A program made the translations under genes and the position numbers. This document shows, one piece after another, positions 5,579-23,852 of a stretch of 40,596 bases of DNA. The notes under the pieces are model-generated. The model saw nothing but the letters and a program-made list of their open reading frames with translations, searched no databases and was not told the DNA's origin. The DNA lies in the NCBI GenBank assembly GCA_947624975.1, contig CANQMP010000015.1:1-40596 (forward strand), given 5' to 3'. Position 1 is the first letter of the stretch; each line of letters opens with the position of its first letter. This stretch comes from Candidatus Gastranaerophilales bacterium (GTDB lineage Bacteria; Cyanobacteriota; Vampirovibrionia; Gastranaerophilales; Gastranaerophilaceae).

Positions 5579-5606
5579 TAAAGTTTCCCTTAAATAAAGC
5601 CGATAA
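5579..5606 (+). promoter_or_regulatory. Sigma-28 (FliA/SigD)-type promoter before the giant protein gene
   Basis: TAAAGTTT (5579-5586) and GCCGATAA (5599-5606) both match the enterobacterial sigma-28 consensus at all eight positions. The distance from TAAA to GCCGATAA is 16 bases, one more than the E. coli optimum and within the range described for sigma-28/SigD promoters. Transcription would begin near 5613, about 14 bases before the ATG, leaving AAAGGA in the leader. A second site with the same spacing is at 22565. Confidence 0.75.
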
Positions 5607-5626: not shown

Positions 5627-8600
5627 ATGAGAATAAACGGATTACCAAATAAATTCGAAATATTCCAAGATTTCTACTATGAAATGAATGGAGAGCGTAT
5701 CTCCTATAATGAAGCTTTGACTTTATATTCAGAAATGGATGAGGAGGTAAAGGCTGAATTTGAAAAATATTATAAAGATGAAACAGGTTATGATGTATTA
5801 AATTATTCGGGTTATAATCTTGATATTACAGACTGTTTCAATGCCGACGGCACTGTTAAAGATGCTTATATTAACATAATCAGCCGTTACGACAGTATAA
5901 GAGCTGCACTGGACGCTTATGCAAAGAAAAATGATTTGATTATTGACCCTCAATGGGCGGGTTATTCTGCAGAAGAAATTATTCAGATGGAAAATGACGG
6001 AGTTTATATTCCTAAAGAAGTTTTAGACATTGCACACACAATATATGAAACAAGCGGAGCAAACATTGAAGATTCCGATGAAAGTGCGGACGATGAAAGT
6101 GAAACTACGACCGAAAAAGAGCCGTTTTTGGACTTAATTCCTAAGGCAAAAAAATATATCGAAAAATGTAACAATAAAAATGAAGAAGTAAGCGACAAAA
6201 TACAAGAACTCCTTCCCGAACAGGCAAAAGCGAAAAAAGCCTTTATTCAGCAGATACAAGACCAAAAGGCTCAATTAAAAGAATATGAAGAAATCATCAG
6301 AGAATGGAGAAGTTTACAGAACAAAATTAATAACGGCGAACCTTTGTCTTCATCCGAAGCAAAACGTTATGCCCAAATTACAGGCATGCTTGAAGATAAA
6401 AACACCAAAGAAGGCGTAGCCGAAACATTTGATAAATTTAAAATGGCGATGACTTTAAACGAAATCAACGTCATGGCAGTTTTGGGCGAAAAGCTTGCAA
6501 ATGATACCATTGAAATCGGTGATACGCTTGCAGATTACACTTCAAAGAAAAATTATAAAAACACCCGTTCTCAGGCAAGTTCAAGTATCGGTTTCTGGGG
6601 AGCTATACTTGCAATGATAAAAGGTAAAGCACTTGCAAAAGATGCGTCATTAACGGGTAATGATACTAAAGAATACATGGATGAAAGCCACGGTTCGGCA
6701 ATGAATATCGCAAGTATGATGGGTGTTCAAGGCTTTATGTCTGATGTAAGTGTTCCGCAGGAAGTAGAAGAACCTTCAGTTGATGAGCAGGCACAAATTC
6801 AGGAAAGCCAAACCGAAGGTCAACCCGAAGAAGTTCAGTCGGCAGAAGAAACATCGGATGCAGAAAATGTTGATGATACTCAGGCTAAAGAAGAAATCGA
6901 CAACCCCGAAGTTACCCCCGAAGAAGATTTTATTGTTAATGACGATTCCGTAAAAGATTTGAGCGGTGACGCTGATGACATTTTAGGAGATTTTATAAAA
7001 CAAATTGCAACGGCTTCCAAAAATAACAGCGCAGCTAAAAAAGACAGCACGTATGCAAAATTTGTTGATAAAAAACTTGCAAGATACATCAAAGAATACC
7101 AGTCTTGGGAAGAAGAACGCAAAAAAGAAATTGAAGAACTTGAAGAAGAAAATAAAAAATTAAAAGAAGAAATTGAAGAATTAACAGGTGAAACGGAAGA
7201 AGAAATTGATGAAGAACTCAATTCCGAAAAATCGAATGAGCAGGATGACGATGACAACAAAACGAAAGGTAATTTTATTGAGCGTTCACAAGCTAAAATG
7301 AAAAAAGCAAAAATAAAAGATAACAATAACAAAATTGAAAGCATACAAAACGAAGAAGATGATTCGCTTGAAACTTTCAAATCCAAAACGGACGGTATTA
7401 AATCACAACTTAACCAAAGAATCCCGAAAGAATCACAAGCTTACGGGGGCGATTTGGAATACGCCGAAAAGATTATTCCCGAAGGAATTGAGAAACTGAA
7501 TTTTACGGGCGCATCAGGTAAAACGCTCAAAAGAATGGGCAAATACAGAATTACTGTTGGTCTTGAACAAATAGCTTCATTACAGTTCAGAAAAGGTATG
7601 AAAAATGTTGCTAAAGGTACAATCAGTTCATTAATCGGTATGGAAGCGGCAATAAAAGGAAAATCACATGTTCCAAAACTCACTAAAAAAGTAACCGAAT
7701 CTGCGGTTAGCAACGAAGAAAAAGCTTTAAACAGTTTAACATCAATGGATTCTTCCATTGTTGAAATTACGGGAGATGACGCGGCATCACAACCTCATCT
7801 TGAAAATGCTCAGGAAAATTCGCAAGAAGGTGAAGGTGCAAACGGTGAAGAAAATTCTCAAGGCGTCGAAACCCCAGAAGGCACTGAACAAACAGCCGAA
7901 ACTCCCGTCGGAGCTGAGGAAAATGCAGTTTCGGAAGAACCGATAGTTCCTGAAGAAAACGCAGCGACACAAACTAATCAAACAGAAAATCCAACTACAT
8001 CCGATAATACTCAAGAAGAAGTCAATGTAATTGCTCAAGCAGCTCCCGAATCAGTCAAGGTTGAGCCCACGGGAACAACGGATTCAAATGATATCGAAAA
8101 TGCCGCTGATAAGGTTACCGAAAATACGTCAACAAACATTCAAAGTGCTCAAAGCAACCCTGAGGATGCTGTTAATGAAGCACAAGATGCGGGTGAAAAA
8201 GTAGGAGATGTTACAGGCGGCAAAGAAAAATCCGTAAGCAGTAAAGATGATAAAGAAGATATGGATACGGATAAAGCTGAAGAAGTCGTTGATGATGCTG
8301 CCGATGAAGGTCAGGATTCAAGTGATGATTCCGAAAAAGTTTTAAAAGATACGGAAAAAGACGAAAAACAACTTAAAAAAGAAACTCAAAAACTTGAAAA
8401 AGAAATGAAACGTGACCAGAAAGAAATTGAAAAATTAGCCGAAAGAAATCAGGAAGAGGTTCAAAAACAAACTGAGTTATTGGCACGTTACGAACAGATA
8501 TCCACAGAAAGCGAAAAGTTAGCAGAAGAAGATGAAGCTGCTGCTGCAAGCAGCGGAGATGAAACGCAAGGTACTACTACGGGATTCGCCGTAAGCAGTG

Positions 8601-10603
8601 CCGGAGGTTCAGATCATGTAGATGAATTGCAGAACAACAGTGCTGAAGTTGATGTAATTGCAACAGAATTCCAAAATTCCAATTTAACAGTTACAAATAA
8701 TCAGTCAAAAATTCAAAAACTTCAAAAGACAAATACTAAAAGATTAAAACAGTATGATAAGAAAAATAAAATCAGAGATAAAAAGATTCAAGAAGCCGAA
8801 AAGAAAGAAAACGAAAAAAATAAAAGAAACCAAAAATTACTTGGTATAGTCGGCATTCAAGAAAACATTTTTTCAATTACCTCCATAACAGGTCAAATAA
8901 TGGAAAAAGTTGTACTTCCTCCATGGGTGTCTGTTGTCGGAGCAATTATGCATACTGTTGGTGATATGGGTATGATTGCCTGCAGTGTTACAAAAGCTAT
9001 CATAAATCTTGCCATCGGTAATCTTACGGGTGCATTAATGGGACTTGCAACAACTGCATTATCGATGGTTGGCGGAGCTTCTTCCGTTACAAGCAAATTC
9101 GGCAGTGTTATGACGGCTGTATCTCAAGGTATGAGTGTTGTTTCAAACACTGCAGATTTGGTAAACAATGTAAGAGCCGTACAAGGTAAACAAGCCAACG
9201 GTTTGATGAGTAAAATTTCCGCAATCGCAGGTGCAGTAGGTTCTGTTTCAAGTTCGGCAGCATCACTTTCAGGCGGTTTAAGCAAAGGATTACAAGGTGC
9301 TGCACAAATCGCAGGAGTTGTCGGTTCGGTAACTTCTTCAACAGGCTCAATTATGGGCGAATTCGGCGGAAATCAGAAACTCGCAGGAATTTTGATGACT
9401 GTAGGAAGCAGCATGAGTTTAGCTTCTTCAGCTGTAGGTTTGCTGGCATCTTCAGGTAAGAACGAAGATACTAAAGACAGTAAAAAATCTGAAGAAAGCA
9501 AAAGTGAAAATACGAAACAAACCGACGGTAATTCAGAAACTAAAAATAATTCGGAAACTAAATCCGAAAATAATTCGGAAACCAAATCAGAAACGAAATC
9601 TGAAACCGAAACCAAGTCCGAAACGAAATCAGAAACAAAATCTTCAGAGTCCGAAACAAAAGAAACTTCAAGTGATACTTCGGAAAGCAAAGAAGCTAAA
9701 AGAAATGCAAAAAAAGCTGAAAAAGAAGCTAAGAAAGCTCAAAAAGAAGCTGACAATGCTGCGAAAAAAGCTCAGAAAGAGGCTGATAAGGCTGCGAAAA
9801 AAGCCGACAAAGCTGCAAAGAAAGCTCAAAAAGAAGCCGACAAAGCTGCGAAAAAAGCTCAGAAAGAGGCTGACAAGGCTGCTAAAAAAGCTGAAAAAGA
9901 AGCTAAAAAAGCTCAAAAAGAAGATAAAAAGGCAAAAGAAGATAATAAAGCAAAAGAAGAAAAACAAAATAAAGGCTCTCAATCGGTCGACAATAATTCT
10001 CAAAATAATTCTCAAAATCCCTCACAGTCTACACAAACACCTTCACAATCAGATAAAGGTCAAATTGCAGAACTTTCGCAAAAAACGGGCATGTCACAGC
10101 AAGAAGTTGCTGAAGCAAAAGCTGAACTCAAAAATGTAGCAGCAAATGATAATAACCAACCAAATAATCAGGCGAATAATCAAAATCAAGCAGACGCTCA
10201 GGAAGCTCCTAAATCGGTAACAACTGAAGATATGCAGGCTGAGTCAGCACAAACTCTTAAAACACAGCTTGAACAGATGAAAGCTGACAGCTTAGAAAAA
10301 GCAAATGCATCTGCACAAGAAAGTATGAATAAACTTTCTCAAAAGATTAACGAAGAACAGGCAAGTAAAATTGCTGCAAAACAAGCAAAAATGAAAAGAA
10401 TCGAAACCTTTAACAAAGTTATGGATATGACAGGTTACGCGGCTTCTGCTCTTACAAATATTCTCAGTTCAAAAGATAATCAGGAAAATAAAGCTAAAAA
10501 ACCTGCACCTATCATAAAATTGTCTGAAAGAGCCAAAAGAATTATTGCTATTGACAGTGCGGAAAGAAGCCGTTTGCTCAAAAAATACGGAAAAATCGGT
10601 TAA
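5627..10603 (+). CDS. Giant coiled-coil/low-complexity protein of 1658 residues with a hydrophobic core
   Basis: I do not recognise a family. The N-terminus (1-147) looks globular and has no signal peptide; it begins MRINGLPNKFEIF. After it come an acidic spacer (148-165), a helical stretch (198-235), a Glu/Gln-rich linker (376-438), a strong coiled coil (481-531), a long acidic disordered region (708-905), further coils (905-965 and 1028-1075), and a 180-residue hydrophobic Gly/Ala/Ser-rich region (about 1092-1275) with several possible membrane helices. Then follow SETK repeats (1283-1354), 11-residue KKAQKEADKAA repeats (1358-1444), an Asn/Gln-rich linker, a last coil, and a basic tail. 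AAAGGAAACAATT is the ribosome binding site. The sigma-28-like promoter hints at a flagellar-type or surface regulon; the function is unknown. Long antisense frames inside it are composition artefacts. Confidence 0.9.
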   Translation: MRINGLPNKFEIFQDFYYEMNGERISYNEALTLYSEMDEEVKAEFEKYYKDETGYDVLNYSGYNLDITDCFNADGTVKDAYINIISRYDSIRAALDAYAKKNDLIIDPQWAGYSAEEIIQMENDGVYIPKEVLDIAHTIYETSGANIEDSDESADDESETTTEKEPFLDLIPKAKKYIEKCNNKNEEVSDKIQELLPEQAKAKKAFIQQIQDQKAQLKEYEEIIREWRSLQNKINNGEPLSSSEAKRYAQITGMLEDKNTKEGVAETFDKFKMAMTLNEINVMAVLGEKLANDTIEIGDTLADYTSKKNYKNTRSQASSSIGFWGAILAMIKGKALAKDASLTGNDTKEYMDESHGSAMNIASMMGVQGFMSDVSVPQEVEEPSVDEQAQIQESQTEGQPEEVQSAEETSDAENVDDTQAKEEIDNPEVTPEEDFIVNDDSVKDLSGDADDILGDFIKQIATASKNNSAAKKDSTYAKFVDKKLARYIKEYQSWEEERKKEIEELEEENKKLKEEIEELTGETEEEIDEELNSEKSNEQDDDDNKTKGNFIERSQAKMKKAKIKDNNNKIESIQNEEDDSLETFKSKTDGIKSQLNQRIPKESQAYGGDLEYAEKIIPEGIEKLNFTGASGKTLKRMGKYRITVGLEQIASLQFRKGMKNVAKGTISSLIGMEAAIKGKSHVPKLTKKVTESAVSNEEKALNSLTSMDSSIVEITGDDAASQPHLENAQENSQEGEGANGEENSQGVETPEGTEQTAETPVGAEENAVSEEPIVPEENAATQTNQTENPTTSDNTQEEVNVIAQAAPESVKVEPTGTTDSNDIENAADKVTENTSTNIQSAQSNPEDAVNEAQDAGEKVGDVTGGKEKSVSSKDDKEDMDTDKAEEVVDDAADEGQDSSDDSEKVLKDTEKDEKQLKKETQKLEKEMKRDQKEIEKLAERNQEEVQKQTELLARYEQISTESEKLAEEDEAAAASSGDETQGTTTGFAVSSAGGSDHVDELQNNSAEVDVIATEFQNSNLTVTNNQSKIQKLQKTNTKRLKQYDKKNKIRDKKIQEAEKKENEKNKRNQKLLGIVGIQENIFSITSITGQIMEKVVLPPWVSVVGAIMHTVGDMGMIACSVTKAIINLAIGNLTGALMGLATTALSMVGGASSVTSKFGSVMTAVSQGMSVVSNTADLVNNVRAVQGKQANGLMSKISAIAGAVGSVSSSAASLSGGLSKGLQGAAQIAGVVGSVTSSTGSIMGEFGGNQKLAGILMTVGSSMSLASSAVGLLASSGKNEDTKDSKKSEESKSENTKQTDGNSETKNNSETKSENNSETKSETKSETETKSETKSETKSSESETKETSSDTSESKEAKRNAKKAEKEAKKAQKEADNAAKKAQKEADKAAKKADKAAKKAQKEADKAAKKAQKEADKAAKKAEKEAKKAQKEDKKAKEDNKAKEEKQNKGSQSVDNNSQNNSQNPSQSTQTPSQSDKGQIAELSQKTGMSQQEVAEAKAELKNVAANDNNQPNNQANNQNQADAQEAPKSVTTEDMQAESAQTLKTQLEQMKADSLEKANASAQESMNKLSQKINEEQASKIAAKQAKMKRIETFNKVMDMTGYAASALTNILSSKDNQENKAKKPAPIIKLSERAKRIIAIDSAERSRLLKKYGKIG
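9520..9960 (+). repeat. Tandem coding repeats: SETK units, then 33-bp KKAQKEADKAA units
   Basis: Inside the giant gene, 9520-9690 encodes repeated (S)ETKSE units. From about 9742 to 9920 it encodes an 11-residue unit KKAQKEADKAA (33 bp) in several near-identical copies, with a degenerate lysine-rich tail to 9960. The protein repeat is predicted to form a long charged single helix, as in TolA-type stalks. DNA repeats of this kind can change copy number by slippage or recombination. Confidence 0.85.
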
Positions 10604-20734: not shown

Positions 20735-21730
20735 TTATTTACCTTCCAATTTGTCTAAGCGTTTTGAAATTTCTTCTAATTTTTTATTTTGTGCTTTTAG
20801 AATTTCGTCATGTGCTTTGACTTCTTTTGTAAGTGTTTGAACATTTTTATCAAGTTGTTTAACAGCATTTACAAGCGTATAAATTATATCATCTATACGA
20901 ACTGTTAAAAATCCGTCTGTACTTTTTCTAACAGCATTAGGAAGTATTTTTTGTAATTCTTGTGCCATAACACCTATATGAGGTTCTTTTTGAGGATCTT
21001 TTTTATAAGTGAAGTTGTAAACTTTCATTTGTTGGATTTTATTTAAACCGGAATTATTTTCACCTTGGATGTATTTCAACCGCTTGTCGGATGTGACTTC
21101 TACACCATTGACGGTAAATTCCCCTTTTACATCAAGCTTTCCCGGAATATCGACGGCGGAAAGTTTACTCCCGAGAGCAATAGCATAGTCGCTATCAGCT
21201 GATGCTCCATATCCGATTGCTACGGCATATTTATGGGTTGCCTTACCACCCAGAGCTATTGAGCAATCTCCAGCAGCTATAGCACTTATGAGTGATATCT
21301 CCTTTTCACCTGATTCGGCAAAATCATCAAATCCCACAGCTACTGAATTTTTACCTGTAGCCTTAGCATTGCCCACTGCTATTGAAGGTTTTTCTGAAGT
21401 CTTAATTTTACCGATAACTTTATCTCCATTTTTAAACAGAATATCGTCTTTATCATCTCCATTTTTATTTATCACAAGTATTGCATTGTCATCACTACCT
21501 GTTGTCACTCCGCTCTGACCAATCACTGCTTTTGTTGCCGTAGTAAACGTATTACCTGATTTATCTGACGGGTCTGCCCAATACCAAGGACCATCGGGTG
21601 ATGCTGCACGATTTGAACGCATTCTTGTCGTAATAATCGGCGCCATCGCAGCCAATACTATGCTCATTATGAGCATTACAACCATCATTTCAGCCAAAGA
21701 AAATGCTGATTTTTTCATATTTTCACTCAT
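20735..21730 (-). CDS. Type IV prepilin-like protein fused to YadA-type head repeats and a peptidase S74 self-cleaving chaperone
   Basis: 331 residues in three parts. Residues 1-36 are a class III prepilin leader and helix: MKKSA precedes a cleavage point before Phe10, Glu14 is the +5 glutamate, and a hydrophobic helix follows. Residues about 115-190 carry YadA-head-like repeats (SIAVGNAKATGKNSVAVG, YAVAIGYGASA, YAIALGSK), which in adhesins form trimeric left-handed beta-rolls. Residues 214-331 are a peptidase S74 intramolecular chaperone as in phage tailspikes: SDKRLK supplies the Ser214/Lys219 dyad for autocleavage, followed by HIGVMAQELQKILP and a terminal coiled coil. The likely product is a trimeric surface fibre on a pilin anchor, with the chaperone cut off after folding. 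GGAGAAAAC precedes the ATG, and a consensus promoter lies upstream. Confidence 0.9.
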   Translation of the reverse strand: MSENMKKSAFSLAEMMVVMLIMSIVLAAMAPIITTRMRSNRAASPDGPWYWADPSDKSGNTFTTATKAVIGQSGVTTGSDDNAILVINKNGDDKDDILFKNGDKVIGKIKTSEKPSIAVGNAKATGKNSVAVGFDDFAESGEKEISLISAIAAGDCSIALGGKATHKYAVAIGYGASADSDYAIALGSKLSAVDIPGKLDVKGEFTVNGVEVTSDKRLKYIQGENNSGLNKIQQMKVYNFTYKKDPQKEPHIGVMAQELQKILPNAVRKSTDGFLTVRIDDIIYTLVNAVKQLDKNVQTLTKEVKAHDEILKAQNKKLEEISKRLDKLEGK

Positions 21731-22453: not shown

Positions 22454-22564
22454 ATCAATTATCCGAATTATTCCGTTAATTTGTTTACATTTCGTTAAAC
22501 AAAAAACAATATTTCTTTTTTTTAAATTTTTCGTAACAATCCTTAATAAATACCATTGAAAAAT

Positions 22565-22592
22565 TAAAGTTCCGACCGTTATGTGCCGATAT
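22565..22592 (+). promoter_or_regulatory. Second sigma-28-type promoter, before the 52-residue CxxC protein
   Basis: TAAAGTTC (22565-22572) and GCCGATAT (22585-22592) are separated, TAAA to GCCG, by 16 bases, identical to the site at 5579. GCCGATAT is the Bacillus SigD version of the -10 box. Expected start site is near 22599, with CGGAG in the leader. Confidence 0.72.
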
Positions 22593-22623
22593 AAAATTTA
22601 TAGTCAGAACGGAGAAACAAATT

Positions 22624-22782
22624 ATGTTAAAAAAGATAATATCCCCATCGTGTAATATATGCGAAAGTGTGGAATTTATATTAAGAGGAGCGAGAAAACG
22701 CCGCAATTTGGCGTTAGCGTCCGCAAAAATGATTAATGCGGATGCGGGTATAGAAAAAGTGCATCTGCATGCGGTAAAATAG
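22624..22782 (+). CDS. Small CxxC protein (52 residues) behind a sigma-28-like promoter
   Basis: The frame starts MLKKIISPSCNICESVEF, continues through a basic patch RGARKRRN, and ends EKVHLHAVK. Cys10 and Cys13 form a CNIC pair that could bind metal or be redox-active. No family is recognised, and it is not an obvious FlgM anti-sigma factor. CGGAG precedes the ATG, and two overlapping terminator-like hairpins follow, so promoter, ribosome binding site, frame and terminator agree on a genuine monocistronic small gene. Confidence 0.7.
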   Translation: MLKKIISPSCNICESVEFILRGARKRRNLALASAKMINADAGIEKVHLHAVK

Positions 22783-22792
22783 CACTTTTTTT

Positions 22793-22822
22793 AAAAAAGA
22801 CCTCAAAAAGGTCTTTTTTTTT
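22793..22822. terminator. Bidirectional terminator after the small CxxC gene
   Basis: GACCT/AGGTC around CAAAA is flanked by six A and nine T residues; it also serves the converging dehydrogenase gene. A second hairpin, AAAAAGTGC (22754-22762) with GCACTTTTT (22782-22790), spans the last codons and the stop of the small gene. Confidence 0.85.
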
Positions 22823-23852
22823 ACGGTTTTATCAAAAATTTTATCGCTTTTCCGTCAATATGCTGCTGCATAGCCCATTCGACTTTTTCCAACGGCAGAG
22901 TACCCGTTATAAGCTTTTCAACCTCAACATCGCCCGAGGCAATATAATCCAGCGCCATTCTGAAATACTTTGGAGTATGATGAAACACGCTCATGAGCTT
23001 TATATCGCCGTAATGCATTTTTGTCGTGTCAAAAGTTACCGTTGAACCCGATTTACAACCGCCGAAAAAGTGAACTGTACCGCCCGGTCTTACGCAAGAG
23101 AAAATTCTCTCCCAAATTTCGGGCAAACCGACACATTCCACAGCAACATCAAGCCCTTTATGTTCTTCCGTAAAATCCCTAAAGATTTTTTCGGGATTAG
23201 GATATTTTTTTAAATCAACAATTTCATCGGCATGTGCAAATTCTTCCGCCGCTTTTAATTTTATCGGATTTCTGCCGGCAACGATAACTTTTGCACCTTT
23301 CAGTTTCGCAAGCCTTGCAAACATCAAACCGATAGGCCCGATACCGATAATTCCGACCGTCTGACCCGCTTTTATGTCGGTTCTTTCAACCCCGTGAACA
23401 ACATTGGCAAGAGGTTCGCAAAAAGCAGCTTTGTCAAAACTCAAATCATCAGGCAAAATTAACATATTTTTTTGAACAATTCGTGCCGGAACGGTTATAT
23501 ATTCAGCGTATGCACCGTTAAGCAAATTTAGGTTTTCACACAAATTGTACTCGCCTTTTCTGCAATAAAAACATTCACCGCAAGGGGCTGAGTTTGCCGC
23601 AACAACTCTGTCGCCTTCTTTAAAATTCTCGACACCTCTGCCGACTTTCTCGACAATTCCCGCAAATTCATGCCCGAAACCCGACGGTACAGACTTGATT
23701 AAGACGGGATGTCCGCGTCTGAATGTTTTTACGTCAGTTCCGCAAGTTAAAGCGGAAATTACTTTAACCGTAACTTCACCCTGCTCGGGCGGTTTTATCG
23801 GAACTTCTTCAAATTTTATATTCTGTGGGCCGTAATATTGAATAGCTTTCAT
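22821..23852 (-). CDS. Zinc-type medium-chain dehydrogenase (threonine/sorbitol dehydrogenase-like)
   Basis: 343 residues of the MDR superfamily. Catalytic zinc ligands appear in ALTCGTDVKT and GHEFAGIVEKVG, structural zinc cysteines in APCGECFYCRKGEYNLCEN, and the NAD-binding strand in VGIIGIGPIGLMFA. It should oxidise a secondary alcohol or polyol with NAD(P); the substrate is unknown. GGAG precedes the ATG, which overlaps the upstream dehydrogenase stop by four bases. The pair may work on successive or related substrates. Confidence 0.88.
   Translation of the reverse strand: MKAIQYYGPQNIKFEEVPIKPPEQGEVTVKVISALTCGTDVKTFRRGHPVLIKSVPSGFGHEFAGIVEKVGRGVENFKEGDRVVAANSAPCGECFYCRKGEYNLCENLNLLNGAYAEYITVPARIVQKNMLILPDDLSFDKAAFCEPLANVVHGVERTDIKAGQTVGIIGIGPIGLMFARLAKLKGAKVIVAGRNPIKLKAAEEFAHADEIVDLKKYPNPEKIFRDFTEEHKGLDVAVECVGLPEIWERIFSCVRPGGTVHFFGGCKSGSTVTFDTTKMHYGDIKLMSVFHHTPKYFRMALDYIASGDVEVEKLITGTLPLEKVEWAMQQHIDGKAIKFLIKP

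Follow-up and report, generated by a model that had tools for sequence, protein, structure and literature searches.

The subject of this analysis is a 40,596-nucleotide stretch, contig C15 of a Gastranaerophilales metagenome-assembled genome (1.9 Mb, 99.95% complete), which we call the window, and in particular a gene for a 52-residue protein that lies within it behind a sigma-28-type promoter. The Gastranaerophilales belong to the cyanobacterial phylum and are uncultured bacteria of the animal gut. Positions 22565 to 22819 of the window probably form a one-gene transcription unit, judged jointly with the rest of the explanation developed below. The elements of this locus, together with a box just upstream of it, are as follows.

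22532-22549, plus strand: candidate activator box CGTAACAATCCTTAATAA, two TWAMA-like half-sites 10 base pairs (bp) apart, approximately 58 bp 5' of the expected start and position-locked in orthologues
22565-22592, plus strand: sigma-28-type promoter, TAAAGTTC-N12-GCCGATAT, recognized from sequence and kept upstream of orthologues
22611-22615, plus strand: ribosome binding site GGAGA, 8 nucleotides 5' of the ATG, recognized from sequence
22624-22782, plus strand: gene for the 52-residue protein, containing CNIC (ATG at 22624, stop at 22780-22782), supported by the frame, tblastn, a profile search and the substitution pattern
22663-22743, plus strand: codons of the single predicted helix, residues 14-40 (AlphaFold2, alignment of 71 sequences)
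22793-22819, plus strand: intrinsic terminator, hairpin and T run (-11.1 kcal/mol, z -3.7)

The distance from TAAA to GCCG in the promoter is 16 bases, identical to that at a site at position 5579, and in this respect the initial annotation of the window was borne out by the sequence. The same is true of its description of a clear ribosome binding site and a 52-codon frame with CNIC, and we agree with its remark that such a frame is too short for the usual gene callers, being easily missed in ordinary annotation. The annotation had also claimed terminators in the plural; a hairpin is indeed present at 22793-22819, but it is the only one found. Since this hairpin also faces a convergent dehydrogenase-like gene at 22821-23852, the terminator may be shared and serve both genes. 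An Rfam search of the window gave no match.

Conservation of the frame was evident from tblastn, the check that had been proposed for it, which matched the 52-residue protein in 68 of 97 relatives and 34 of 55 genera. A profile search recovered the family in 163 of 386 genomes of the phylum, nearly all of them from a single family of the order, and gave a single match in a class-level relative. Most same-genus orthologues carry GGAG at a roughly constant position. The synonymous-biased substitution that had been expected was also observed, with a mean ratio of nonsynonymous to synonymous changes (pN/pS) of approximately 0.23 over the first 43 codons in the genus and near genera. These comparisons indicate that the 52-codon frame is a real gene under purifying selection. 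Its neighbours are housekeeping genes that differ between genera, and the neighbourhood provides no functional link.

Promoter conservation was scored over the 11 consensus bases of TAAAG and CCGATA, located at most 100 nucleotides from the start, in the 70 orthologues with enough upstream DNA. All 11 bases were present in 49 of these and 10 in another 13, so that 62 of 70 had 10 or more of the 11 bases, as compared with 0.8% of control windows. When a single sequence was taken per genus, 29 of 33 scored at least 12 of 15, and orthologues from about 30 genera retain the promoter. It persists across families whose proteins share only 40-55% identity, the related sequences among them being non-independent. 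Two outcomes had been set beforehand as counting against the annotation, loss of the frame from close relatives and absence of the motif upstream of orthologues; since both frame and motif are conserved in relatives, neither was observed.

Pattern searches of the genome for TAAAG-N14..16-CCGATAW, which define the regulon, returned 16 matches in the whole 1.9 Mb as against 1 for the reversed pattern. Eleven of the 16 strict sites are intergenic, at 20-35 nucleotides 5' of a start codon that in most cases has a clear ribosome binding site; the five that lie within genes were excluded. The 11 genes comprise those at window positions 5627 (1658 residues) and 22624 (52 residues), two near-identical genes and seven others encoding 48-165 residues. 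From two matched promoters the initial annotation had predicted a shared regulon of undescribed proteins, and because the same promoter precedes 11 genes of the genome, most of them undescribed, a regulon of 11 genes sharing a sigma-28-type promoter is well supported by sequence. Its promoters are presumably read by sigma-28 polymerase. A scan of the regulon products other than the 48- and 52-residue ones from contigs C3 and C16 gave no weighty family match. No apparent Sec-like signal peptide or strong membrane segment was seen in the 11 products, except for the hydrophobic middle of the 1658-residue protein. The two near-identical genes are located on contigs C8 and C10, and their products start with MGMSASQARLL. 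Near-identical paralogues on different contigs (L137:4023-5852 and L138:4026-5876; 609 and 616 residues, MGMSASQARLLSITARL...) each have a near-identical sigma-28 promoter and leader. The other regulon member within the window is represented by two features.

5579-5606, plus strand: second sigma-28-type promoter of the window, 16-base gap, recognized as a sequence pattern
5627-10603, plus strand: 1658-residue acidic regulon protein with long coiled-coil-like ends, a hydrophobic middle and no apparent signal peptide

The middle of this protein, approximately residues 1240-1420, is hydrophobic and rich in Gly, Ala and Ser, and family searches gave no convincing match. Type III translocators also show an arrangement of coiled-coil-like ends and a hydrophobic middle, and the 1658-residue protein is a candidate export substrate.

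The 52-residue protein itself is basic, with a computed net charge of +6, and has no apparent signal peptide or membrane segment. AlphaFold2 modelled one helix, amphipathic in character, with a predicted local distance difference test score of about 89-90 in the core and lower values at the ends (mean 75.8). The hallmark of the family is this single basic amphipathic helix, S-V-x-F-I-L-R-G-A-K-K-R-R. In a wide alignment M1, R26, R27 and A30 were invariant, and V16, L20, A23, K25, G42 and K52 nearly so. The CxxC motif, which the initial annotation had taken as the mark of the protein, is present in only 41 of 70 distinct members, and is absent from aligned members of other families of the order. 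A CxxC or zinc-ribbon functional centre was rejected, as the motif is lost in 29 of 70 members while other residues are invariant. Overall, the promoter, the real short gene and the regulon of the earlier reading stand, and CxxC as a hallmark does not. That reading had overlooked that flagellin is undetectable in the genome, that the regulon extends over the whole genome and that the promoters come with a further element 5' of them. Searches with the 52-residue protein against Pfam (E 0.001), NCBIfam and PHROGs gave no family match, and profile searches of the PDB with its family gave chance-level matches only. Residues 14-28 (window 22663-22707) weakly resemble a helix of mitochondrial uS7 (FAVKWILQAAQKRR, 7pkq; E 0.013). 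This likeness is probably due to chance, since a single uS7 chain was matched; a second profile gave other chance-level matches, to DIM1 and S18. The predicted structure suggests that the protein has the form of a helical binding partner.

Upstream of the promoter, a T at position -31 from TAAAG is found in 94% of 68 orthologue upstream sequences. When one sequence per genus was considered, the half-site occurred at -31 in 55%, as compared with around 10% for most other positions, and 11 of 33 sequences had both half-sites, where 2.4 were expected and 300 shuffles gave at most 8. These data point to the 10-bp-spaced box as a candidate activator site. Among the 11 regulon promoters of this genome both half-sites occur in 4, against 0.9 expected; since the shuffle maximum was also 4, sequence is only suggestive of a box common to the whole regulon. 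A response regulator (L133:8375-9088) and a kinase adjoin the FlhA operon, and the regulator scores 203.8 bits to RpaB and 207.1 bits to MtrA, both below cut-off. The HLR1 site of RpaB consists of two (G/T)TTACA(T/A)(T/A) repeats with 2 nucleotides between them (PMC9241938). The box described here resembles the cyanobacterial HLR1, with a pair of TTACA-like direct repeats spaced by one helical turn and lying about 45-60 bp 5' of the start (PMC9241938). It differs in its spacing of 10 or 11 and its degenerate half-sites, and the regulator falls below the RpaB equivalog cut-off and is slightly nearer to MtrA. An activator site upstream of a sigma-28 promoter is also described for aer of E. coli, where CRP activates from a site centred about 50 bp 5' of the start (PMC2859248). 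The aer case involves one gene and CRP, whereas here the box recurs at several promoters of the regulon and across an order of bacteria.

The genome encodes a FliA/WhiG sigma factor (TIGR02479, 233.8 bits; cut-off 189.6), and sigma-28 is universal among the sampled genomes of the order. Directly 5' of fliA and on the same strand lies a gene for a 189-residue protein without a known family (L135:5024-5593, minus strand). None of the 33 genomes of the genus gave a match to flagellin (PF00669), which other families of the order commonly have. FlgM (PF04316) went undetected in all sampled genomes of the order, whether flagellated or not. The core export gate (FlhA, FlhB, FliP, FliQ and FliR) was found in full, with one full-length copy each of FliP and FlhB, and one full-length FlhA together with a shorter C-terminal relative. 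The genes occur in a FliE-FliF-unknown-FliH-FlhA run on contig C16 and a FliR-FliQ-FliP-FliO-FliN run on contig C3, the latter adjoining secretin, pilus-type ATPase and T2SSF genes. The full-length FlhA, FliP and FlhB frames are open across the genus, and a search for rod proteins gave two to three matches in most of its genomes.

In flagellated relatives both FliP and full-length FlhA are usually present in two copies. When 20 FlhA proteins were placed in a tree, the flagellar copies formed one clade, and the second copies together with those of the flagellin-less genus formed the other, both with 100/100 support; G084, the deepest row of the second clade, sits on a long branch and its placement is unsure. 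FlhA scored 701.9 bits where flagellar FlhA requires 772.1, and 588 bits where SctV requires 692.25, and since it falls below both curated cut-offs it was assigned to neither. An earlier survey concluded that non-flagellated genomes hold some flagellar genes, which together cannot specify a functional flagellum (PMC4040986). Because of the second FlhA clade, which is also represented in flagellated relatives, the retained genes look instead like a separate type III-like export apparatus. According to the tree, the retained set differs from the flagellar set and was present before flagellin was lost. We found no report of type III secretion in the class in the literature consulted, part of which consisted of titles and abstracts.

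In most genomes there is also a second FHIPEP match, which spans only the C-terminal half of FlhA (profile 307-655) and lies in a frame of approximately 495 residues; such partial matches score about 170-180 bits in frames of 490-510 residues (e.g., G021:C59:4355-5395), and this frame is possibly a separate protein resembling the FlhA cytoplasmic domain. Tandem-looking, G/C-rich intergenic copies (ccctcaccctagccctctcccgcag...) are located at L133:300-760, 5' of the FliE-FlhA run. At L238:10579-19212, FliR, FliQ, FliP, FliO and FliN-domain genes are co-directional with T2SSF, T2SSE ATPase and secretin genes, and the export gate and pilus genes there look like one cluster.

We propose that a FliA-type sigma-28 RNA polymerase transcribes the 52-residue gene from the promoter at 22565-22592, probably aided by an OmpR-family response regulator on the 10-bp-spaced repeat, and that the product would be a 52-residue protein with one basic amphipathic helix and floppy ends. 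In this flagellin-less lineage sigma-28 would drive about a dozen units, whose products would serve a second, flagellum-like type III export apparatus (FliE, FliF, FliH, FlhA, FlhB, FliO, FliP, FliQ, FliR and FliN). The 52-residue protein would most likely bind an export component or product as a regulator or adaptor, and less likely be cargo. We assign this explanation as a whole, comprising sigma-28 unit, response regulator, second export apparatus and helical partner, a probability of roughly 55%. The gene, promoter, regulon, undetected flagellin and second export set are established from sequence; from these we infer that sigma-28 reads the promoters, that the regulon serves the second apparatus and that the 52-residue protein binds a partner. 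The small gene is linked to the export machine because of shared sigma-28 control, rather than gene order. Several observations weigh against the proposal. The 52-residue gene lies outside the export-gene operons in the loci examined, and it is absent from, or only weakly matched in, some genera that have the second export set (g3 and most of g21). It also occurs in flagellated relatives, and could therefore belong to general sigma-28 biology. In addition, the secretin beside FliOPQR may belong to a type IV pilus. A broader view is more tentative, at less than even odds: that the Gastranaerophilales and close relatives in the class have an ancestral second type III export machine, which is not the flagellum and has hitherto been taken for flagellar remnants, with its own sigma-28/response-regulator regulon of undescribed exported proteins, and that a dedicated 52-residue helical protein links the activity of sigma-28 to export.

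Other roles for the protein have to be weighed against that of a helical partner. As cargo or a small structural subunit (rod- or needle-like) of the second export apparatus, it would fit its late-class (sigma-28) promoter, its helical form and the lack of an apparent signal peptide; however, it has just 52 residues, with one 27-residue helix and a basic KKRR core, and no Pfam or NCBIfam family match, and on balance we consider this unlikely. Alternatively, it could stand in for FlgM, as an anti-sigma-28 factor that is itself sigma-28-promoted and exported and thereby gives feedback. FlgM is undetected across the sampled order despite universal sigma-28, and the two share a small, mostly flexible product and a sigma-28-type promoter. 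The 52-residue protein, a single helix, is strongly basic and has no sequence likeness to FlgM, though, and class-level relatives such as G086 and G091 have neither a detectable FlgM nor a 52-residue match in a single-sequence search; we regard this role as improbable. Homology to FlgM was rejected, with no Pfam match at E 0.001. The net charge of +6, the RKRR core and the weak uS7 likeness would suit a small RNA- or ribosome-binding protein with a role comparable to that of HctB of Chlamydia, which is histone-like and sigma-28-driven. Only one uS7 chain was matched, the second profile yielded nothing above chance, and the conserved face mixes hydrophobic and small residues with arginines, which leaves this idea quite doubtful.

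That the export genes and sigma-28 are decaying leftovers of a flagellum, with a regulon that does nothing at present, conflicts with the open, full-length FlhA, FliP and FlhB frames across the genus, with the separate FlhA clade common to flagellated relatives, and with the conserved promoters and purifying selection on the 52-residue gene; we find it very hard to sustain. A short frame in AT-rich DNA could arise by chance, as could the motif, but this explanation is refuted by the conservation of the gene, its codon substitution pattern and the conservation of the promoter, and retains next to no probability.

Compared with the FliA/sigma-28 class 3 flagellar regulon of E. coli and Salmonella, the system has the same TAAA and GCCGATAW boxes and a FliA/WhiG-family sigma factor. 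It differs in that flagellin and FlgM are undetected, the products are unrelated and undescribed, a conserved box lies 5' of the promoters, and the gap is 16 (or 15) where sigma-28 promoters usually have 15. Chlamydia trachomatis likewise keeps sigma-28 without flagella, and knockdown data there give a two-gene regulon of hctB and tsp (PMC10597470). Both cases combine a non-flagellated cell, sigma-28 beside type III export genes and a basic protein target (PMC10597470), whereas here there are about 11 genes instead of two, the genes are other ones, and FlhA lies below the flagellar and SctV cut-offs. Sigma-28 surviving loss of the flagellum would have a further case besides Chlamydia. Relative to the earlier survey, what is new is that genes read as a non-functional flagellar subset appear as a separate export set, and such an apparatus beside a sigma-28 regulon would be a candidate route for protein delivery outside the cell. 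With its promoter, the 52-residue gene provides a compact and testable way into this export system. Elsewhere in the window, positions 20735-21730 (minus strand) encode a 331-residue chain with a prepilin N-methylation motif, a YadA head repeat and a Peptidase_S74 chaperone domain.
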